The notes under the pieces are model-generated. The model did no database searches. It was not told where the DNA came from and worked only from the letters and a program-made list of their open reading frames with translations. From a virus, in IMG/VR virus record IMGVR_UViG_3300010430_000353, positions 1 to 29,527 of that record: 29,527 nucleotides of DNA; one strand, given 5' to 3'. How positions within the stretch are numbered: the stretch's first letter is position 1; each line of letters starts with the position of its first letter. Made by a program: the position numbers and the translations under genes. Positions 3,140-29,527 of this stretch are shown here, piece by piece.

Positions 3140-5424
3140 TAAGTCGGTTGGACCTGCCAGCGGTCAATAGTTATAGTATCTGCTGCATTGCCAAGCGTTC
3201 CGTAAATGCTGATATACAGATCACTGGCGAATGAAATGCTTGTGGTGTCGGCAACATCATCATTCGGACCGCCGACTTCTTTACCATTGACATCCACCAC
3301 GACAGTCGTCCCAGATGTTCGGTAAATCTCGCCTGTGATGATAAATCTATTCTCATCGCCAGCCGCTTGGTTAATAACAATATTTGAGATGCCGCCCGCT
3401 CCCGTGTTCACCTCATAACGAACCTGTTTTGTGCCTGCTGTTCCTGAACAAAATCCTACGGCAGAAAACTTGATACGCTGCGATGCTGGCAAGTAGCCTG
3501 CCGGAATGATCAGCTGCTTTAGAAGAGTGATCGTTACCGTTCCCGTAACGCTAGATGGGGCCAGATCGTCAACAGTTGTCTTGAGGCCATAGCAGCGACC
3601 CACGCGCGAGTTATTCGCCAGTGTGTTGTCAAATACGATAGCTTCACCAGCACTAGGTCCGAACATATTATCGTCAGCGATCTGAATGAAATCTCCGTAC
3701 TCATCGACGCGTATGTGATTTTCCTGCGTTGGCAATCCCTGGTCGTCGTAGAATTGGCATCCACTGATAGAAATGTATTCCGGGTCAACACTCGTGCCGC
3801 CAATGTGGATGCCTCCATTGCCGGTTATTCCGCCAGGCGTGATTGTCCCATCTTGCCCGTTGTTACGCAGGACGCACCCCTGAATCGTCGCACGCAGCAA
3901 TGCTTGTCCCAGTAGGATGCCTGCCGCTCCATTTTCCTCCGAAACACATCCTTGAAAAATAAGGTCGTCTATTTCGCCAAGGTTTCGCCAGCCGTCTCCG
4001 TCATTGCCCCTCGCCTCACATGCGACAAAGGTTGCGTGCTTGGCAGTGCTTGCCGAAAACCCCGTTTCGAAACCACTGCCACCATTACCTTGTCCGTTGT
4101 TGTACGAAATGCAGCCAATGTGGCGCCCACCTGACTTGAACCCGTTAAGGTCATTCCCTGTTGCATGGCAAGAGACCCATTTCAGGCTATCGTGACCGCC
4201 AACGAATCCAGTGCCGCCAGCACCACCTGCAGCTTGGTGCGCAGCAGATCCGCAGTTTTCAGCTCGGCAATCAACGAAAGTGCTATCCCTGCCGCATTCG
4301 TTTGCCTCCACGCCGCCATTAGACAAGAACAGACCGTGGTCTACTGCGTTTCGTATAAGCACATTCTCGCCGCGCAATCTGTGACATGCGCCAAGGAAAT
4401 AAACGGCACGGGCGTTGTTGCTGCTACCTACAGTTTGGTTCGCCTGATTTCCGTCTACAATGATGTCGCGCAATGTAACGTCTGTAATGTCGGTTCCCGC
4501 CATAACGTTTCCGTTTGTGGCATCCAACATCTTGATTACGGGTCTAGAAGATGGGCCACCAGAGATTGCAAGGCCGGTGTGCATGGTAAGGCCAGAGTGC
4601 GCGTAAGTCCGCCCCTCACGCAGATTGATTGTATCTCCGAACGCCTGCTGGTACGCCAGCGCCTGGGTCCAAGCTGATGAGTCATCACTCCCATCTCCGG
4701 ATGCCCCAAAGTGCTCTAGGTAAACATCACCAAACGGCAGCCATCCAAGCATATCGCTGATCGCGGTCGCACCTGCTGATTTAATGTAAGATACAGTGCC
4801 ATCAGATACTACATTGCCGTCATCCCACTTCTTACCTGCCACAATATCGGACACAAAATCAGTACGAGAAGTATAATGAGATTGGTCAAGCTTAGCTTGT
4901 ACGTCTTCCCCATCAGAGGTGGATACTCCATTAGCACTAGGAGTGCCAGTAGAAGTAGACTCTTGGATGTTGATCTCTACATTATCTACACCCTTTGGTG
5001 GGGCCGTTGTAAAAGAAAGGGAGGTACCAGATACTGTGTAAGTGTCTTTTTGTTGGTAAATACCATCAATGTACACTTGAGTATTGGCCCTACTTACAGG
5101 GTCTTTGGTGAGAACGAAAGTTAGTGTAGAGCCATCACCAGAAAATCTATTAGTAGTATTAAATACAGTGCCAGGCCCCACTCCAGCTAAGATATCTGAA
5201 ATGTCTACTCCCTGTACAGTGAGGTTTCTTTGAACATCTACATCTCTAGCATTGAGAATATCATTAGAGTTCATATCGAGGTCAGAAAGCATTTGATTGG
5301 GCGTTGAACCGTCTCTGGACAAGGTGTTATCAAATGCCGAACCAATCTCATCCCAATTATTATTAATAGTCGTCCCTGAGTTTAGGATATTAGTTATATC
5401 AGTTAAGTTAGGTCTCTTTGCCAT
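3139..5424 (-). CDS. Tail spike with phage anchor and pectate-lyase-like beta-helix
   Basis: This 761-residue protein probably recognises, and may degrade, a surface polysaccharide. Residues 1-60 (MAKRPNLTDI, then INNNWDEIGSAFDNTLSRDG) match the virion-anchoring start of many podovirus fibres, and about residues 100-165 contain VYIDGIYQQKDTYTVSGTSL, a small beta-domain often repeated in fibres. From about residue 235 a beta-helix begins (HFGASGDGSDDSSAWTQAL, the usual pectate_lyase_3 entry), rich in Gly/Asn turns to about residue 620, followed by a beta-sandwich-like C-terminus. The ATG at 5424 has GGGGAGAAAG 8-9 bases before it; 15 codons further upstream the frame is open but lacks a signal. 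Base composition changes at about 4720: 4201-4260 has 36/60 G+C and 5341-5400 has 19/60, so the binding part looks acquired. The start overlaps the holin-like gene by 17 bases. Confidence 0.85.
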   Translation of the reverse strand: MAKRPNLTDITNILNSGTTINNNWDEIGSAFDNTLSRDGSTPNQMLSDLDMNSNDILNARDVDVQRNLTVQGVDISDILAGVGPGTVFNTTNRFSGDGSTLTFVLTKDPVSRANTQVYIDGIYQQKDTYTVSGTSLSFTTAPPKGVDNVEINIQESTSTGTPSANGVSTSDGEDVQAKLDQSHYTSRTDFVSDIVAGKKWDDGNVVSDGTVSYIKSAGATAISDMLGWLPFGDVYLEHFGASGDGSDDSSAWTQALAYQQAFGDTINLREGRTYAHSGLTMHTGLAISGGPSSRPVIKMLDATNGNVMAGTDITDVTLRDIIVDGNQANQTVGSSNNARAVYFLGACHRLRGENVLIRNAVDHGLFLSNGGVEANECGRDSTFVDCRAENCGSAAHQAAGGAGGTGFVGGHDSLKWVSCHATGNDLNGFKSGGRHIGCISYNNGQGNGGSGFETGFSASTAKHATFVACEARGNDGDGWRNLGEIDDLIFQGCVSEENGAAGILLGQALLRATIQGCVLRNNGQDGTITPGGITGNGGIHIGGTSVDPEYISISGCQFYDDQGLPTQENHIRVDEYGDFIQIADDNMFGPSAGEAIVFDNTLANNSRVGRCYGLKTTVDDLAPSSVTGTVTITLLKQLIIPAGYLPASQRIKFSAVGFCSGTAGTKQVRYEVNTGAGGISNIVINQAAGDENRFIITGEIYRTSGTTVVVDVNGKEVGGPNDDVADTTSISFASDLYISIYGTLGNAADTITIDRWQVQPT

Positions 5425-24412: not shown

Positions 24413-24624
24413 TAAACCACACCTGTAAACCCTGCTTCATCCCATTGATACATTCTCTCTGGCATAGTCCCAGTATAACCTTGAGCACCTAGCCATGCAT
24501 ACAGAGCATCTGGCAATGCTCCTGTATATCCTTGGGAAACTATAAACGCTTTCAGCATATCATTTAAAGCACCTGAGTACCCTGCTGCTAAAAGACTATC
24601 ATAAAGAGCTTTAGTATTCCTCAT
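24412..24624 (-). CDS. Small repeat protein (four GYTG-type repeats)
   Basis: This 70-residue protein is made almost entirely of an approximately 17-residue repeat: GYSGAL (15-20), GYTGAL (32-37), GYTGTM (49-54) and GFTGVV (65-70), each followed by a short amphipathic helix such as NDMLKAFIVSQ or PDALYAWLGAQ. The start overlaps the stop of the 43-residue gene (ATGA) and its stop overlaps the small terminase (TAATG), so it is surely translated. Related repeats occur in short proteins at the same place in other phages. The function is unknown. Confidence 0.8.
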   Translation of the reverse strand: MRNTKALYDSLLAAGYSGALNDMLKAFIVSQGYTGALPDALYAWLGAQGYTGTMPERMYQWDEAGFTGVV

Positions 24625-24752
24625 TTCTTCTTCCTTCGTTTAGACTGACTTGCCTTAATAGTACGTCCTTGCTTTTCTGCTTGGGCTTTAGTGGGATAGA
24701 CTTTACCTGCACTACCCCAACGGTAGCCACCTTTAACTTTTCTTACTGGCAT
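24621..24752 (-). CDS. 43-residue basic protein, first gene of the late operon
   Basis: MPVRKVKGGYRWGSAGKVYP is followed by a Lys/Arg/Gln-rich tail ending KRRKKK. I recall very similar short proteins (xPVRKVKGGYRWGxxGKxYPTKxxAExQ) in the head regions of many phages, without a known function; the basic tail suggests nucleic-acid binding. GGAGG lies ten bases before the ATG. The stop overlaps the next start as ATGA, the operon's usual coupling, which confirms the frame despite the short length. It is the first gene downstream of the leader with the ATAGCTCCG repeats. Confidence 0.85.
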   Translation of the reverse strand: MPVRKVKGGYRWGSAGKVYPTKAQAEKQGRTIKASQSKRRKKK

Positions 24753-24902
24753 TACTTAACGCCTCCGGCACTAAATGTTAGAACGAAGAAGGGATCGGAG
24801 CTATATATACTCATGGGCGGAGCTATGAGAAATACTTTAGCGGAGCTATACCTTCTCCGAACTCTCCTATTTTTGCGGAGAAAATAATTTGGTGTAATAC
24901 GT
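24753..24902 (-). promoter_or_regulatory. Late operon leader with three ATAGCTCCG repeats
   Basis: No gene is present. On the minus strand ATAGCTCCG occurs three times, at 24841-24849, 24818-24826 and 24796-24804, spaced 23 and 22 bases, about two helical turns. Upstream of them TTCTCCG and CGGAGAA form a 7-bp inverted repeat (24853-24882). This lies between the candidate -10 and the first late gene. Regular spacing suggests a bound protein, an RNA-binding array or a processing element. Confidence 0.45.
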
Positions 24903-24911
24903 ACTATAGCA
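24903..24911 (-). promoter_or_regulatory. Candidate leftward extended -10 promoter for the late operon
   Basis: The minus strand reads TGCTATAGT: an extended -10 (TGn) with TATAGT, five of six matches to TATAAT. No good -35 is visible; the spacer is a run of G tracts. Transcription would begin near 24896, about 144 bases before the first late gene. Confidence 0.4.
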
Positions 24912-25020
24912 ACACCCCCATTCCCCCCTTGCACCCCCTCACGCGCGTATGCGCACATACATGCGTAGCATAATCTCCTGGGTGTTGTCAATGGGTATTA
25001 CGCCATGATTGCATTGAATA

Positions 25021-25064
25021 GATACATATTTGTATCACTACGTGATTATTATCTAATGATATCA
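25021..25064. promoter_or_regulatory. Cluster of three palindromes in the divergent control region
   Basis: GATACA-TATT-TGTATC (25021-25036), ATCAC-TAC-GTGAT (25034-25046) and TGATATCA (25057-25064) follow each other in the gap between the leftward late genes and the rightward RNA/early genes. They look like operator sites. The stretches around them (24912-25020 and 25065-25173) show no gene; a TTGACA at 25108-25113 lacks a good -10. Confidence 0.4.
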
Positions 25065-25173
25065 ATGAGTTGATGGCCAGGTGGAGTATTCAAACGCTCC
25101 GCACCACTTGACATTGTGTTTGATTATTCTTATCCGCGCGTTGTGTGTTCTTATATCCATCACGATAGGATGT

Positions 25174-25182
25174 TGTTATACT
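25174..25182 (+). promoter_or_regulatory. Candidate rightward extended -10 promoter before the structured RNA
   Basis: TGTTATACT is an extended -10 with TATACT (five of six). Start would be near 25189, just before the small hairpin GGTAT-GGA-ATACC (25192-25204). No -35 match is visible. Confidence 0.4.
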
Positions 25183-25298
25183 ATCACATAGGGTATGGAA
25201 TACCTTACTTTTAATTGGTTTGGGTATATGTTGTTATGAATTCATCGAACGGCGCTACATCGCTAGGCCACTAGGTTGAAAGGTTCGGTAGGGGACTT

Positions 25299-25331
25299 GA
25301 TCTTGCCCCCGCCTTGTGCTTAAGTAAGGTT
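25299..25331 (+). repeat. Hairpin copy 1 with the CCGCCTTGTGCTTAA loop
   Basis: The stem is 25299-25306 with 25324-25331 (8 bp, three of them G-U). The loop region CCCGCCTTGTGCTTAAG (25308-25324) is identical over 17 bases to copy 2, while the stem sequence differs and still pairs. Confidence 0.75.
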
Positions 25332-25640
25332 CAGAGACGCAGGAAACGCAGACGTTAGATAGGAGTATCCTTAACCGGACTTGATCCCTGTCTATCAGAG
25401 CTTAGACTGCCATACGCTAGAAGTGCCTAGTCTCTACATATGACGCCGCTAACCCACAGCGTCTAACAAATAAGGGGTTGACAAGGTTGGCACCTCCTGA
25501 TAAGGTGTAAACAGTCAAGCACACTGCCCCACGGCAGGCATATTGACAATAAAAGTGGTCCCTTGAAAAGGGGTAGGTGTACCATAAGTAAACCATTCAC
25601 GCTTGGCACGACGTTTATATCGGCCACACTAAGGGTACTG

Positions 25641-25671
25641 ACCTAGCGCCCGCCTTGTGCTTAAGCTAGGT
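25641..25671 (+). repeat. Hairpin copy 2 with the CCGCCTTGTGCTTAA loop
   Basis: ACCTAGC (25641-25647) pairs perfectly with GCTAGGT (25665-25671). The loop carries the same 17 bases (25649-25665) as copy 1, 341 bases upstream. AAGCACA at 25517-25523, between the two copies, is exactly complementary to TGTGCTT in either loop and could form a pseudoknot. Confidence 0.8.
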
Positions 25672-26193
25672 TTGGAAATATATCCTCTAGGGGTAATACC
25701 CTAAGCGAGAGTTGGACTAGTAATAGGGAACAGCATTCCCGTGCTAACTGGCCAGGCTATGTGTGAGGGTCTGTGAATAGCTGCCGCCTTTAGGTGTCGT
25801 GTGTTCTTACTAGGTAAGCTCATACGTAAAAGAGACGGTGAAAGCAGGCTACGCAAGGCTAGTTAGTAATTGAAATATCCAGACTGTACGGCGATGTACA
25901 GGTAGTGAGGACGCGACCACGATAGGCGCGAAACAAGTGTGTGCGGGGCCAGGACCAGTTTGCCCTACGTCTGTAGAATGACGTCAATGGTTTGTGGTGT
26001 GATACCACTAACGGCTGACCTTTATTGCGATGCCGTGCAACCCAGCGGGTTCAACCCCGGTTGTGTGAGCTGGCGCTAGGCTATCCTAGTTGTCGCCCGA
26101 GATGTGTTAGCTCACTCAGCGTTGTGTTTGACTGTTTGCTAAGGCAAGCTGCCATTGATTGGCTGTTTACCTTAACAAACTATGGAGGATGCT

Positions 26194-26412
26194 ATGCAGT
26201 ATCTGAAAGAAATGCCTAACGGCAATCGCAAGCAAGTGGATCAGGAGCAGTTCCTGGTTGACAAGCACAATCCTGACTATTGTCAGATCATTGCAACCAG
26301 TGCCCTTGTCATCTATAAGTTGGCACGTCGTGCTACTGGTCATGTGCCTAAGCCTCTTCGTTATGGTGGCCGTGGTCGTGGCGGTCCTGGCACTGTATGG
26401 AATGGTGCTTAA
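26194..26412 (+). CDS. Small early-type protein, unknown function
   Basis: This 72-residue protein begins MQYLKEMPNGNRKQVDQEQF. The middle is helical (YCQIIATSALVIYKLARRAT) and the tail is a Gly/Arg-rich segment (YGGRGRGGPGTVWNGA), reminiscent of nucleic-acid-binding tails. The ATG at 26194 is chosen because GGAGG ends five bases before it; an earlier in-frame ATG at 26182 would overlap that ribosome site. It is the first gene downstream of the structured RNA and may share its transcript. I recognise no family. Confidence 0.7.
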   Translation: MQYLKEMPNGNRKQVDQEQFLVDKHNPDYCQIIATSALVIYKLARRATGHVPKPLRYGGRGRGGPGTVWNGA

Positions 26413-26415
26413 GTA

Positions 26416-26458
26416 ATCTAGTCTGCTGCCCTATATGGGCAGTGGTGTAGACTACTTA
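26416..26458 (+). other. Intergenic RNA hairpin between two early genes
   Basis: CTGCCC-TATAT-GGGCAG forms a tight 6-bp stem, with AGTCT and AGACT able to pair outside it across an internal loop. There is no T-run, so it is more likely an RNA-processing or stability element than a terminator. Confidence 0.5.
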
Positions 26459-26475
26459 ACCAAAGGAGAATAACT

Positions 26476-27066
26476 ATGACACATCGTCTACATAACGTGG
26501 TGTATGCACGGCTTGATGCTGTTGCTGCCGCCGAAAAGATCACCCGTGTTGAGCTGGGCCATCTGTCCCGTGAGCTGCTTGAGTACGTGGTGGACACACA
26601 TGACATTGATATTGTCAACCGCCTCATCGGTGTGCTGACCCCTGTCAACAAGCGTGTCTCTATCCTGTACTTCACTCACTTCCTTCCGTGGACTGTGGAA
26701 AAGGACAGCGACGGCAAGTTCGTGCGATTCGGTAAGATGCTGGGCAAGCCTAAGCAGGTGAAGAAACGTGTTGAACTCATTGCCGCATTCCTGGTTAATG
26801 AGAACAATAACATCTGGTCGTGGTCCGATGAACACATCGAGGTTGAACAGAAGCAAATCAACCTGGGTGAGAAACTGGAAACTGCAATCGTCCAGGCTAT
26901 GCAGGGTGTGGACACTGACAAGCAGCACGGTGACGCCCTATCCAAAGCTGACATCCTCACCGTTGTCATGAAACATATCACCGGCGATGAGATGCTTGAT
27001 ATCATCACGTCTGTCGCTGATGAGGTCCAGGAACAGGTGGACGATGTGATGGATGAGGCTGCATAA
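26476..27066 (+). CDS. Conserved-looking early phage protein, unknown function
   Basis: This 196-residue soluble protein has an N-terminal half with helices (LDAVAAAEKITRVELGHLSR) and a Trp/Phe-rich core (ILYFTHFLPWTVEKDSDGKF, residues 84-103). It is followed by KMLGKPKQVKKRVELIAAFL, the acidic segment NIWSWSDEHIEVEQKQINLG and a long helical acidic tail (DEVQEQVDDVMDEA). AAAGGAG lies seven bases before the ATG. Codon choice here is more G+C-rich than in the late genes. The mix of basic middle and acidic tail would suit a nucleic-acid mimic or host-takeover protein, but that is a guess. Terminator follows. Confidence 0.75.
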   Translation: MTHRLHNVVYARLDAVAAAEKITRVELGHLSRELLEYVVDTHDIDIVNRLIGVLTPVNKRVSILYFTHFLPWTVEKDSDGKFVRFGKMLGKPKQVKKRVELIAAFLVNENNNIWSWSDEHIEVEQKQINLGEKLETAIVQAMQGVDTDKQHGDALSKADILTVVMKHITGDEMLDIITSVADEVQEQVDDVMDEAA

Positions 27067-27081
27067 GCCTACCTATATAGT

Positions 27082-27132
27082 CAGCTGCGTCATTAGATTG
27101 GGTCCGTTTTGCAATGACGCGGCTGGCATTTT
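27082..27132 (+). terminator. Intrinsic terminator after the 196-residue gene
   Basis: A 13-bp stem (CAGCTGCGTCATT at 27082-27094 with AATGACGCGGCTG at 27113-27125, one G-U) has an 18-base loop and is followed by ATTTTA. The T-run is short, so termination may be partial and the tRNA island could be read through. Confidence 0.7.
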
Positions 27133-27160
27133 ATGGGAGAAAATATTGATTGCATTTGCT

Positions 27161-27181
27161 GGTCCCTTAGCTCAACTGGAT
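27161..27181 (+). pseudogene. 5' fragment of a split tRNA gene
   Basis: GGTCCCT-TA-GCTC-AACTGGAT is a textbook tRNA acceptor 5' strand, U8-A9, D-stem 5' strand and D-loop; no D-stem 3' strand or anticodon arm follows. Its acceptor strand pairs over all seven positions (one G-U) with AGGGATC of the fragment at 27611-27644, 450 bases away. The fragment is overlapped by the 3' end of the HNH gene on the other strand. Confidence 0.7.
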
Positions 27182-27522
27182 GATCTTCGAGAGTGTGTTA
27201 CTATAGAGTGACAATTAGCACACCGTACTTCACACTTACGTATCTCCTCTTTAATAACCTGCATTGAAAAACATTGACTTACTAAAGAAGAGACGTTATC
27301 TTTCTTTAAACCCCTTACATGGTCAAACTGCAAAGCCACGGGGTTGTCCTTATAACCACAGTCAATGCAACCACAAAACGTTTTGTAACGGTTAGTGAAG
27401 GCGATTAACTTAGGTCTGAGAGCTTTTTGTCTGGCCTTTCTCTTATCTTTATAATACTGTTTGTTGTCTTGGTAATGTTGTTTTATGTACCTTTTTTGGT
27501 ACTCTGGGTCATTACTTGGCAA
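27172..27522 (-). CDS. HNH homing-type endonuclease
   Basis: This 116-residue protein has a basic, helical N-terminus (KRYIKQHYQDNKQYYKDKRK) followed by a complete HNH zinc finger: C52-x2-C55 in CGCIDCGYKD, the catalytic Asp67-His68 pair in LQFDHVRG, Asn75-Asn76-like loop KKDNVSS, then C101-x2-C104-H105 in VRCANCHSIVTH. It would nick or cut DNA and promote its own spread. The start is TTG, with AAGGAGG six bases upstream. That ribosome site is the complement of the tRNA-Arg acceptor strand, and the last codons (RRSSS-stop) are the complement of the split tRNA's D-arm. It is the only leftward gene in the early arm, an obvious insertion. Confidence 0.9.
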   Translation of the reverse strand: MPSNDPEYQKRYIKQHYQDNKQYYKDKRKARQKALRPKLIAFTNRYKTFCGCIDCGYKDNPVALQFDHVRGLKKDNVSSLVSQCFSMQVIKEEIRKCEVRCANCHSIVTHSRRSSS

Positions 27523-27527
27523 TATCT

Positions 27528-27603
27528 ACCTCCTTGGTGAAACTGGATATCATACGAGATTTCTACTCTTGGGTTAGGGGTTCGAGTCCTCTAGGGGGTG
27601 CCA
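27528..27603 (+). tRNA. tRNA-Arg (anticodon TCT)
   Basis: This is a full cloverleaf of 76 bases with encoded CCA. The acceptor ACCTCCT/AGGGGGT has 7 bp with one G-U. The D-stem is GTGA/TCAT and the D-loop AACTGGATA has G18-G19 and A20. The anticodon stem CGAGA/TCTTG carries the loop TTTCTAC with anticodon TCT at 27562-27564. The variable loop is GGTT, the T-stem AGGGG/CCTCT has the loop TTCGAGT, and the discriminator is G. A20 and C35 are known arginine identity elements. It would help read AGA/AGG codons. It lies inside the split tRNA, back to back with the HNH gene. Confidence 0.93.
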
Positions 27604-27610
27604 ACTATCT

Positions 27611-27644
27611 TTCAACGTAGGTTCGAGTCCTACAGGGATCGCCA
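27611..27644 (+). pseudogene. 3' fragment of the split tRNA gene
   Basis: GTAGG-TTCGAGT-CCTAC is a perfect T-arm (27617-27633), followed by acceptor AGGGATC, discriminator G and CCA (27634-27644). Upstream, TTTCAAC could be the variable loop, but the anticodon arm is missing: eight bases earlier is the CCA end of tRNA-Arg. It pairs with the 5' fragment at 27161. Confidence 0.7.
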
Positions 27645-27669
27645 TGTGTAATCAGAGGAGTAATAGCCA

Positions 27670-27897
27670 ATGGCACATTATATGGGTAAGAAGAAGTTGT
27701 ACGAAGGTCGGAAGGGAGAGGTGATTGGAGGGGGCTATTTTGTACTACGCCGTGGGAAGAAAACCGGCAGAGTATCTATCAAATCGTCCTTGCCATTTGA
27801 GCATGGCAGCAAAGAGAGCGCTCTCAGAGAGTGTGATAGGCTAACTGAACTGTACCCTGGGGAGTCGTTTAAAGTGTTTAAAGAGGAGACAACCTGA
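27670..27897 (+). CDS. Small basic phage protein, unknown function
   Basis: This 75-residue protein, MAHYMGKKKLYEGRKGEVIG, continues with a beta-strand pattern (GGYFVLRRGKKTGRVSIKSS) and an alpha-helical region (GSKESALRECDRLTELYPGE) ending FKVFKEETT. It looks like a short beta-beta-alpha fold. AGAGGAG precedes the ATG by about ten bases. The stop overlaps the next start (TGATG). It is the first gene after the tRNA island. I recognise no family. Confidence 0.75.
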   Translation: MAHYMGKKKLYEGRKGEVIGGGYFVLRRGKKTGRVSIKSSLPFEHGSKESALRECDRLTELYPGESFKVFKEETT

Positions 27898-28132
27898 TGA
27901 AACGTTTTGCTGTAATGTTCAGCCACAACGGACGTAAAAGACGAAGGGTGTGCCCTTCAACTTCTACGGGGAGTCGGAAGAACAAGTTCGCTCTCACTTC
28001 GCCTCCAAGAGGTACGGCATTGAGTCTGTCCGCATGTGTTCCACCCTTACGGACTCAGACCAACCTGACCTGAGTAAGTCAGAGGAAGCAAAAACTACTC
28101 ACCATTCAACACAACCAGGAGAACTCCTATGA
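27897..28132 (+). pseudogene. Small phage protein split by an apparent -1 frameshift
   Basis: The ATG at 27897 overlaps the upstream stop and has GAGGAG in front. It gives MKRFAVMFSHNGRKRRRV, then runs into Ser/Thr/Pro-rich text and stops at 28073. The -1 frame, open from 27938, continues sensibly as PFNFYGESEEQVRSHFASKR and onward to a stop at 28130-28132 that overlaps the next ATG as ATGA. Together they read as one protein of about 78 residues (strand, turn, amphipathic helix). The switch must occur between 27938 and about 27950, within AAAAGACGAAGGGTG. I see no standard slippery heptamer, so a one-base lesion or sequence error is likelier than programmed shifting. A separate GTG start at 27950 lacks a properly spaced ribosome site. 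Confidence 0.55.
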
Positions 28133-28359
28133 AAACCTTTGGCCTCATTGCAAACGGTAAAGTCATTGAAAACGTCACTGTCACCATGCAGGCGACTGAC
28201 CTTGACGAGCAACAAACCCAGGGAATCTGTGTCCGCAAAAATATTGAGGATGAAAGCAAGGTCAAACAGGTTCGTGACAGTGTGCAGAAACGTAACATGG
28301 GCCGTCGGATGGCTCAGCAGGGTGCTACTGGCGTTCGTATCTTCCCTGTAGCAGCATAA
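28129..28359 (+). CDS. Small phage protein, unknown function
   Basis: This 76-residue protein begins with a beta-hairpin pattern (KTFGLIANGKVIENVTVTMQ), then a central acidic stretch (DLDEQQTQGICVRKNIEDES), a basic helix (VKQVRDSVQKRNMGRRMAQQ) and the hydrophobic end VRIFPVAA. The start overlaps the stop of the frameshifted gene (ATGA), and GGAG lies eight to nine bases before it. The 'MKTFGLIANGKVIENVTV' opening resembles phage proteins that form a small beta barrel; no function known to me. Confidence 0.75.
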   Translation: MKTFGLIANGKVIENVTVTMQATDLDEQQTQGICVRKNIEDESKVKQVRDSVQKRNMGRRMAQQGATGVRIFPVAA

Positions 28360-28360
28360 C

Positions 28361-28489
28361 ATGCACGACCTAGTAATGGGTCTATTCCTATTACAGCTAC
28401 ATAACACGGCTCTCTTATTGGGGGCCGTGTTGTTTGCCGTTGTGGTTTATTTTGTAATGGCAGCTGTATACAAATTTGGGAGAAAATAA
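28361..28489 (+). CDS. 42-residue single-pass membrane protein
   Basis: MHDLVMGLFLLQLHNTALLL is followed by a strong hydrophobic segment (GAVLFAVVVYFVMAAVY, residues 21-37) and the basic end KFGRK, giving an N-out/C-in single-pass design. The ATG lies one base after the previous stop (TAACATG) without its own ribosome site, so expression would be by re-initiation. The stop comes just before the start of the next gene. Possible roles include superinfection exclusion or a lysis accessory; nothing in the sequence decides this. Confidence 0.6.
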   Translation: MHDLVMGLFLLQLHNTALLLGAVLFAVVVYFVMAAVYKFGRK

Positions 28490-28490
28490 C

Positions 28491-28982
28491 TTGAACATAT
28501 TTGTCTATGATCCGAGCTACACACAATCAGCCTTGTGGCTAGATGATATGAGAAAGAACAAAATGATTGTGGAGTCAGCACAGTTGCTATCCACTGCCAT
28601 GAATGTTCTTGTGCCGAATCATGGCAAACCTGTTTATAAAACTTCCTATCTCAACCACCCATGCGCTAAATGGGCAAGAGCTAGCCAAGGCAATTTTCTT
28701 TGGTTGTTTAACTACGTCTTGGAACTGTACTCACAACGTGGTCGTCCCCATAAAACATCGAGACTGTTCCCTGTCTTTGAGAACTTCTCATCCAGGTCGT
28801 CTAACTTCACGGCCACCAAACAGACACCCTTCGTCAACTGCGCTAGAGCCAAGGACTTAGGTGTTGATTATACTCACATACCGAACGTCTATGCTGCCTA
28901 TCGTCTCTACCATCGTGAGCGTTGGAGTATGGATACAATTAAACTGTCATGGAAACACGGCGAAGAGCCGTTCTGGAGGTAA
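28491..28982 (+). CDS. Conserved phage protein of the 'NIFVYDP...NHPCAKWAR' type
   Basis: This 163-residue protein starts at TTG (28491), preceded by GGGAGA at seven bases; a TTG at 28476 in the same frame would lie on that site. Conserved-looking blocks are NIFVYDPSYTQSALWLDDMRKNK (beginning), MIVESAQLLSTAMN, YLNHPCAKWARASQGNFLWL with conserved-type Asn-His-Pro-Cys, RPHKTSRL, and QTPFVNCARAKDLG with YRLYHRERW. I recall this set in many phage and some bacterial proteins, sometimes annotated as a pyrimidine-dimer glycosylase relative, but without proof. The His/Cys/Asn residues hint at an enzyme acting on nucleic acid. Specific function is left open. Confidence 0.75.
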   Translation: MNIFVYDPSYTQSALWLDDMRKNKMIVESAQLLSTAMNVLVPNHGKPVYKTSYLNHPCAKWARASQGNFLWLFNYVLELYSQRGRPHKTSRLFPVFENFSSRSSNFTATKQTPFVNCARAKDLGVDYTHIPNVYAAYRLYHRERWSMDTIKLSWKHGEEPFWR

Positions 28983-28984
28983 GC

Positions 28985-29527
28985 ATGAAACTGTTGAAAG
29001 ATCTTGACCTTAAGGTTGGTGACAAAGTTAAGTGTGTAGGTAACGCTGTTAATGCCTGCCTTGGTGCGGAATACGAAGTTGTTCCCCATGAGTACTTGAA
29101 AGGTGAGCTTGCACTCGACCTAAATACTCTCCATGAGTTGAAATCATACTCCGACTCCTTGTTCGAAAAGGTAGGCGATAAGCCACTCATCACAATTGAT
29201 GGTGAGTATGCTTTGTCTGACGATCCCTATACACCTATCCGTATCTTATGTGTGGATAGGCCACACAGGTCACACCCAGTGGTAATTATGGATAAAGATG
29301 GCAACATCTTAAAAATGAGAGCTGATGGATCCAAGAATTACCCAGATGGCTCCTATATCGTGCCCCTGAAAAAGAAAGTTGGGACTATCTGGTGTGTGTT
29401 CGATAAGAATAACAATCTAATTACCTTACGTAATTCGGAAGAGTTGGCAGAAAGGTTTATCCGTATGTGGGAACCAAAAAATTGTAATTCTTATGAAATC
29501 GTGAAAATGGTGCAATCGGAGGACTAA
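28985..29527 (+). CDS. Phage protein with SH3/KOW-like segments, unknown function
   Basis: This 180-residue protein starts at ATG 28985, with GGAGG five bases upstream and the previous stop three bases away; an in-frame ATG at 28949 lies inside the preceding gene and is unlikely. The N-terminus KDLDLKVGDKVKCVGNAV resembles a small beta-barrel opening (GDKVxCVG), and PLITIDGEYALSDDPYTPIR, HPVVIMDKDGNILKMRADGS and GTIWCVFDKNNNLITLRNSE show repeated strand-turn-strand units. The C-terminus is helical (ERFIRMWEPKNCNSYEIVKM). The stop is exactly at the window end. I do not recognise the family. Confidence 0.75.
   Translation: MKLLKDLDLKVGDKVKCVGNAVNACLGAEYEVVPHEYLKGELALDLNTLHELKSYSDSLFEKVGDKPLITIDGEYALSDDPYTPIRILCVDRPHRSHPVVIMDKDGNILKMRADGSKNYPDGSYIVPLKKKVGTIWCVFDKNNNLITLRNSEELAERFIRMWEPKNCNSYEIVKMVQSED

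Follow-up and report, generated by a model that had tools for sequence, protein, structure and literature searches.

A putative HNH homing cassette splits a phage tRNA-Arg(UCU) gene and carries a diverged tRNA with the same anticodon

The window, i.e. the whole stretch of DNA analysed here, is a virus record of 29,527 bases. Its terminase is 74% identical to that of Pseudomonas phage PA11 and 73.6% identical to that of phage KZY1, both members of the Zobellviridae, and based on these identities the window probably belongs to the same family. KZY1 was also the only phage record matched when the window was searched as DNA, over 14% of the query. At positions 27161-27644 a tRNA gene is split into two halves by an insert, and the following features were assigned to this region.

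27161-27181, plus strand: 5' half of the broken resident tRNA gene, almost certainly tRNA-Arg(TCT) (GGTCCCTTAGCTCAACTGGAT), with the acceptor strand at 27161-27167 and the first part of the D-arm.
27172-27522, minus strand: HNH endonuclease gene, an open reading frame of 116 aa (PHROGs phrog_2255, HNH endonuclease, E = 1.5e-25; 70% identical to its relative in locus L001).
27182-27188, plus strand: GATCTTC, probably what is left of the broken tRNA's anticodon stem and loop (CTTC), judged from the same CTT/CTTC junction in loci L005 and L006.
27189-27603: putative extent of the inserted cassette (HNH gene and cargo tRNA), judged from the L005 and L006 junctions and from intact tRNAs; the right border is uncertain and may lie as far as 27606.
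27528-27603, plus strand: intact tRNA-Arg(TCT) carried as cargo, with the anticodon loop TTTCTAC and an encoded CCA (ARAGORN; Rfam RF00005, 48.7 bits).
27607-27616, plus strand: ATCTT TCAAC, probably derived from the 3' anticodon stem and the variable loop of the broken tRNA, judged from its position relative to the T-arm.
27617-27644, plus strand: 3' half of the broken tRNA (GTAGGTTCGAGTCCTACAGGGATCGCCA), with the T-arm, the acceptor strand at 27634-27640, and GCCA.

A first-pass annotation of this DNA had described a split tRNA gene with a leftward HNH gene and an intact tRNA-Arg(TCT) between its halves, and both points were confirmed: the acceptor strands of the two halves (GGTCCCT and AGGGATC) pair over seven positions, one of them being a G-U pair, and the open reading frame and the ARAGORN and Rfam tRNA lie where expected. 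The same annotation considered the anticodon arm to be gone, which is too strong for the arm as a whole, as GATCTTC and the ATCTT at 27607-27611 look like remnants of it. The GAT at 27182-27184 could pair with the ATC at 27607-27609, three pairs that by themselves weigh little.

The identity of the broken gene was investigated with intact tRNA genes from viral contigs. A pattern of 15 bases at the 5' end and 19 fixed bases at the 3' end, with 31-60 bases between them, matched eight intact viral tRNAs with the two ends found in the window, and all eight were called tRNA-Arg(TCT) by ARAGORN; since only single genes having both ends could match, the result speaks for the unity and identity of the gene and not for its frequency. 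The broken gene was therefore almost certainly a tRNA-Arg(TCT) originally, and the possibility raised in the first-pass annotation that the fragments are the ends of two different tRNAs is rejected. The 5' half is identical at 21 of 21 positions to three intact viral tRNA-Arg(TCT) genes, and the 3' half agrees with the same three genes at 23, 25 and 26 of 28 positions, a likeness that is far from chance. Furthermore, AGA and AGG make up 225 of the 447 arginine codons in 21 genes of the window, so a tRNA for these codons is plausibly needed by the phage.

The intact tRNA within the insert is the only tRNA that ARAGORN calls in the window (tRNA-Arg(tct)). Aligned with the three compared intact genes, it agrees in no more than 54 of 79 columns, and thus the cargo tRNA has the same anticodon but is no copy of the resident. 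The D-arm has a rewritten sequence, and the anticodon loop reads TTTCTAC versus CTTCTAA in the compared genes. The shared anticodon of the broken and the carried tRNA, which had been missed before, indicates that the insert would bring a replacement for the very gene it breaks. The cassette searched as DNA matched 8 phage records, at the tRNA part only, and the exact core of the cargo tRNA had no match in viral contigs, so that the HNH-tRNA pair of the window is at most a candidate for a mobile unit.

The HNH gene overlaps the 5' tRNA half, and its stop codon is the complement of the TCA at 27172-27174 within the D-arm sequence AGCTCAAC. The protein has no match in Pfam or NCBIfam and no meaningful match in a sequence search of the PDB, and a genome scan with it gave 79 bacterial loci. 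It is the only open reading frame of at least 60 aa between the halves. For this reason, and because the resident tRNA is left split, an integrase-type element in a tRNA gene was rejected as an explanation.

The insertion point was located by means of the relatives of the HNH protein in viral contigs, of which the best 80 of 225 were kept. In L005 (HNH 66% identical), the tRNA 5' half ends at CTT and is followed by an antisense HNH gene whose stop codon is formed at the junction; unrelated sequence lies on the N-terminal side of the HNH, and neither cargo nor 3' half was seen there. L006 (also listed as L125; HNH 61% identical) has the order of the window, namely 5' half, antisense HNH gene, tRNA-Arg(TCT)-like cargo and 3' remnant. 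The 5' halves in both loci extend to the anticodon loop (CTT or CTTC), which is where the HNH stop codon lies. The HNH gene also adjoins such a tRNA-Arg cargo in L001 and in L003 (66% identical), without tRNA halves. In the window, CTTC is found at 27185-27188, downstream of a D-arm that has apparently lost about 8 bases. Because L005 and L006 both have the HNH stop codon at the anticodon loop of a broken tRNA, with the HNH gene oriented as in the window, the anticodon loop was most likely the insertion site, and the D-arm deletion of the window would be later or secondary, although the assignment depends on few bases. The earlier view of a mobile HNH-tRNA cassette that landed in a tRNA D-arm can thus be kept in part: a cassette within a tRNA gene agrees with these junctions and with the Paundecimvirus alleles described below, and insertion in the D-arm proper was rejected on the basis of the junctions of L005 and L006. 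A relative with an uninterrupted tRNA, which the first-pass annotation had suggested as a check, was not found at the exact locus of the window. Only one phage record, KZY1 (L300), contains a match to the upstream gene, and it lacks a tRNA at that place. This upstream gene (196 aa) had no match in viral contigs, and the downstream gene (75 aa) matched 34 loci.

Removal of identical matches reduced the 80 loci (the best 80 of 225 relatives) to 58 distinct ones. An ARAGORN tRNA lies within 800 nt of the HNH gene in 29 of these 58 loci and a canonical tRNA-Arg(TCT) in 21, 15 loci match the D-armless pattern described below (about 11 of them of the TAT type), and 25 have either a tRNA-Arg(TCT) or a D-armless match. 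As an imperfect background, tRNA-Arg(TCT) accounts for none of the 39 ARAGORN tRNAs at 80 loci of terminase relatives. The HNH gene sits directly at the 5' end of a tRNA in seven loci (L031, L034, L043, L046, L066, L067 and L068), and in L031 the TAG within the TAGCTC of the tRNA serves as the HNH stop codon. The remaining 29 of the 58 distinct loci, again from the best 80 of 225 relatives, show no ARAGORN tRNA within 800 nt; L007, the next closest relative (57% identical), has none. The HNH family is therefore not tied to tRNA alone.

A parallel case with a different HNH family was found in Paundecimvirus-type phages (Zobellviridae). In phage PA11 (L139), recovered as a terminase relative, a tRNA 5' half is followed by an HNH gene that belongs to a different family and whose annotation notes similarity to T5 TflI, and by a tRNA-Arg(TCT) without a D-arm. 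A search with the FBPa8 locus returned 15 records. Phage JB8 (5% of the query) was excluded, as were the duplicates of PA11 and of O4, and the 12 distinct phages left were compared at one position after the same gene. K4, O4, PPAT and DMTU_1 (4 of 12) carry an intact canonical tRNA-Arg(TCT). FBPa8 (1 of 12) has the 5' half, an HNH remnant, a D-armless tRNA-Arg(TCT) and a 3' half starting with GCTGTAGG, the insert thus taking the place of about 13 bases of the anticodon arm. In PA11, TC6, PSA11 and Ty, the 5' half is accompanied by the HNH gene and the D-armless tRNA; PP21 resembles them with the HNH gene deleted, and these five of the 12 phages have no 3' half. IME180 and HHBS10_2 (2 of 12) carry the D-armless tRNA alone, without an HNH gene, and altogether the 3' half is missing in 7 of the 8 phages with the new tRNA. 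FBPa8 and PP21 (L295 and L299 compared with L294) apparently lost the HNH gene through a deletion bounded by short direct repeats TCTTGTAAT, while the tRNA half and the new tRNA stayed in place.

The 12 phages would form the trace expected of a stepwise replacement of one tRNA by another, with the direction of the changes, gain or loss, being presumed. This HNH lies on the opposite strand relative to the tRNA as compared with that of the window, and the series is a parallel rather than the history of the window itself. Presence and absence at the cognate site among relatives is seen for the TflI-like HNH of PA11-type phages; for the HNH of the window, a junction common to L005 and L006 was found, and an empty site was not. 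In both the window and the PA11-type phages, by sequence, the broken resident and the linked replacement are tRNA-Arg(TCT).

D-armless tRNA-Arg genes were identified in L001, L003, L006, L116-L119, L122 and L123 and in 8 of the 12 Paundecimvirus-type phages, and they also occur, unannotated, in Escherichia phage Av-05, Aeromonas phage AhSzw-1, Salmonella phage Arash, Acinetobacter phage phiAB441, Vibrio phage D260 and phage HSd1. The following genes were assigned as D-armless tRNA-Arg(TCT).

L118: 4863-4950
L120: 4620-4707
L121: 9755-9842
L125: 2816-2903
L117: 1811-1898
L122: 556-643
L301: 1202-1286
L302: 1202-1286
L303: 1201-1287
L304: 1195-1282
L305: 1195-1281
L306: 1182-1269

These tRNAs consist of a 7-bp acceptor stem, an anticodon arm, a T-arm and CCA, with no D-arm. 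A short C-rich stretch of the D-region is predicted to pair with a G-rich stretch of the long variable region, inside a second helix of 3 bp, forming a pseudoknot. In nine sequences of one subgroup, 95.6% of the cells pair and both sides change in 13 of 25 pairs; the observed values were reached by none of 500 shuffles, and slid versions pair at most at 46.2%, the nine sequences being related, so that shuffles overstate the significance, and being the same ones from which the structure was drawn. The outermost pair of the T-stem is formed in none of the nine. ARAGORN misses those D-armless tRNAs on which it was run, and the Rfam tRNA model recognises three of those from Paundecimvirus, with a truncated D-arm and at 38.7-44.5 bits. 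These genes appear to constitute one family, found in phages of several hosts and having a pseudoknot that the covariation of the nine sequences supports. The cargo tRNA of the window is not of this type. It matches model R1 weakly (13.9 bits, E 0.58, with 39 sources searched), and thus no D-armless tRNA is visible in the window.

Several related elements were observed beside this family. A second D-armless type, together with elements similar to it, was noted in L008-L050 (e.g. L010 near 3357-3440), at L307:1195-1271 and in L308 near 1195-1275. In many loci it lies directly after the HNH gene, with the anticodon loop CTTATAC (TAT, Ile-like). The similar elements, with the loop CTGATAA, occur in Streptomyces phages (EGole, annotated as tRNA-Leu) and in Kehishuvirus (unannotated). 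Aeromonas phage AhSzw-1 has a tandem D-armless pair at L302:1108-1195, Arg(CCT) followed by Arg(TCT). Just upstream of the D-armless tRNA at 1195 in Vibrio phage D260 (L305) is an odd tRNA-like sequence with a GCA anticodon-like loop and no ARAGORN call. At L117:1775-1898, a canonical tRNA 5' half is directly followed by a D-armless tRNA-Arg(TCT), with an HNH-like open reading frame downstream; a 3' half was not seen by eye in the 1.5 kb downstream.

According to the available text of a 2024 paper (PMC11551756), every known bacterial tRNA is canonical, and the words 'phage' and 'virus' do not occur in a review of unusual tRNAs (PMC7609411). The open-licence papers searched, as far as their text was available, contain no description of D-armless phage tRNAs. 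These tRNAs are candidates for natural exceptions to the canonical form of bacterial tRNAs and may be the larger discovery of this work.

Taken together, the locus of the window is probably a free-standing HNH homing cassette that replaces the resident tRNA-Arg(UCU) with its own diverged copy, a natural analogue of cleave-and-rescue. The target of the HNH enzyme would most likely be tRNA-Arg(UCU) genes, cut within the anticodon arm or close to it. When the break is then repaired by recombination with a genome that has the cassette, the HNH gene and the diverged tRNA-Arg(UCU) would be copied into it, so that the resident tRNA would be destroyed while decoding of AGA and AGG would be kept by the cargo tRNA. 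Cargo and resident differ in the D-arm and in the anticodon loop, a difference that may protect the cargo from the enzyme. Later, the halves and the HNH gene would decay and the new tRNA alone would remain.

Passive decay offers another account, in which the tRNA island was rearranged by ordinary recombination and the HNH gene and the second tRNA-Arg fell by chance, without any targeting, into an old tRNA gene. Such an origin would suit the HNH relatives that have no ARAGORN tRNA nearby (29 of 58 distinct ones, from the best 80 of 225) and the locus of the window, for which no empty site was found, but it does not account for the antisense HNH gene whose stop codon recurs at the anticodon loop in L005 and L006, nor for the common anticodon of the broken and the carried tRNA, here and in the Paundecimvirus series. 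We regard it as unlikely. There is less to be said for a swap driven by defence, with the HNH gene as a bystander and the new tRNA-Arg escaping tRNA-cutting nucleases of the host. Phage tRNAs of altered shape are reported, in the available text, to resist tRNA-cutting defences (T5 tRNA-Tyr and retron-Eco7; PMC13096335), and the replacement of a vulnerable tRNA by a reshaped one would be a point in common with our locus. A D-armless tRNA persists without an HNH gene in IME180 and HHBS10_2, and likewise in L116, L118, L119, L122 and L123, as a defence-driven swap would allow; since it leaves unexplained why HNH genes of different families lie exactly in the broken tRNA, we find this explanation very improbable. 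Restoration of the split tRNA at the RNA level, by an intron-like insert or by splicing of the halves into a functional resident tRNA, is hardly credible: the anticodon loop is the classic position of tRNA introns, and 7 of 520 trial joins of the window halves are called as a tRNA, in one case as Arg(tct), but the anticodons shift between these joins (act, gcc, tct, tgt), the joins lie away from the expected junction, about 8 D-arm bases are missing, the 3' half is lost from most Paundecimvirus phages with the new tRNA, and Rfam finds no group I intron or any family besides tRNA at E <= 1 on either strand of 24500-29527. The trial joins have little force, as many arbitrary joins are called as well when the halves have better arms (156 of 800 for FBPa8 and 85 of 800 for L125). 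An intron was rejected in view of the Rfam result, and splicing, which the first-pass annotation had held to be the more exotic option given the missing anticodon arm, is disfavoured by the lack of a ribozyme match, the damaged D-arm and the shifting anticodons.

Homing endonucleases in or beside phage genes are already known, and several systems resemble parts of the probable cut-and-replace cassette. Group I introns with homing genes occur in tRNA anticodon loops, so that a nuclease gene at this position of a tRNA is common to both; in contrast, no ribozyme was found here with Rfam, and with the damaged 5' half of the window no splicing would be expected. Synthetic Cleave-and-Rescue gene drives combine a nuclease that breaks a needed gene with a linked, differing copy of that gene. 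The locus shares the broken, plausibly needed gene and the linked differing copy, here natural, in a phage, with a tRNA as the target and with a putative resistance of the rescue. T4 SegB, as described in the available text, is a free-standing GIY-YIG homing endonuclease among tRNA genes (tRNA-Arg/tRNA-Ile) that drives the inheritance of that region (PMC2988022), and it is reported to cut within tRNA genes at the motif RAWTSGAAC (PMC13096335), by our own reading the complement of the conserved T-loop. It is a precedent both for a phage endonuclease gene lodged among tRNA genes and for cutting inside them; in contrast to the HNH of the window, SegB belongs to the GIY-YIG type and lies between tRNA genes, and the available text does not describe it as splitting a tRNA or bringing a replacement with the same anticodon. 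The HNH genes mobE in nrdA of Aeh1 and mobA in gene 60 of T4 are inserted inside genes as here, according to the available text (PMC2988022), whereas their targets are protein genes rather than a tRNA with a substitute tRNA. No cassette by which a tRNA is split and a substitute with the same anticodon supplied was found in the open-licence papers searched, as far as their text was available.

In the window, one homing nuclease would break a needed tRNA gene while bringing the stand-in, which amounts to a selfish strategy. Because the alleles exist in cultured Pseudomonas phages (K4 and O4 versus PA11 and FBPa8), a co-infection test is directly possible. Homing nucleases are usually thought to be harmless by virtue of their location in introns, inteins or intergenic gaps, and to our knowledge the break-and-replace strategy has so far existed only as a laboratory design. 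Tentatively, and with more doubt than for the locus itself, we suggest that phages may carry natural cleave-and-rescue elements in which unrelated HNHs would destroy resident canonical tRNA-Arg(UCU) genes and supply a substitute hidden from the nuclease by its shape. This substitute would often be a D-armless pseudoknot tRNA, an exception to the cloverleaf in bacterial cells, with nucleases that cut tRNA genes as the selective cause.

Two minor observations concern other genes. In Pfam, the region 28476-28982 of the window weakly matches pyrimidine dimer DNA glycosylase (PF03013), with E = 0.00076, a match that does not reach the curated cut-off. At a terminase relative (L204:5792-5874), ARAGORN calls a tRNA-Pyl(cta) among other tRNAs, possibly an amber suppressor tRNA.
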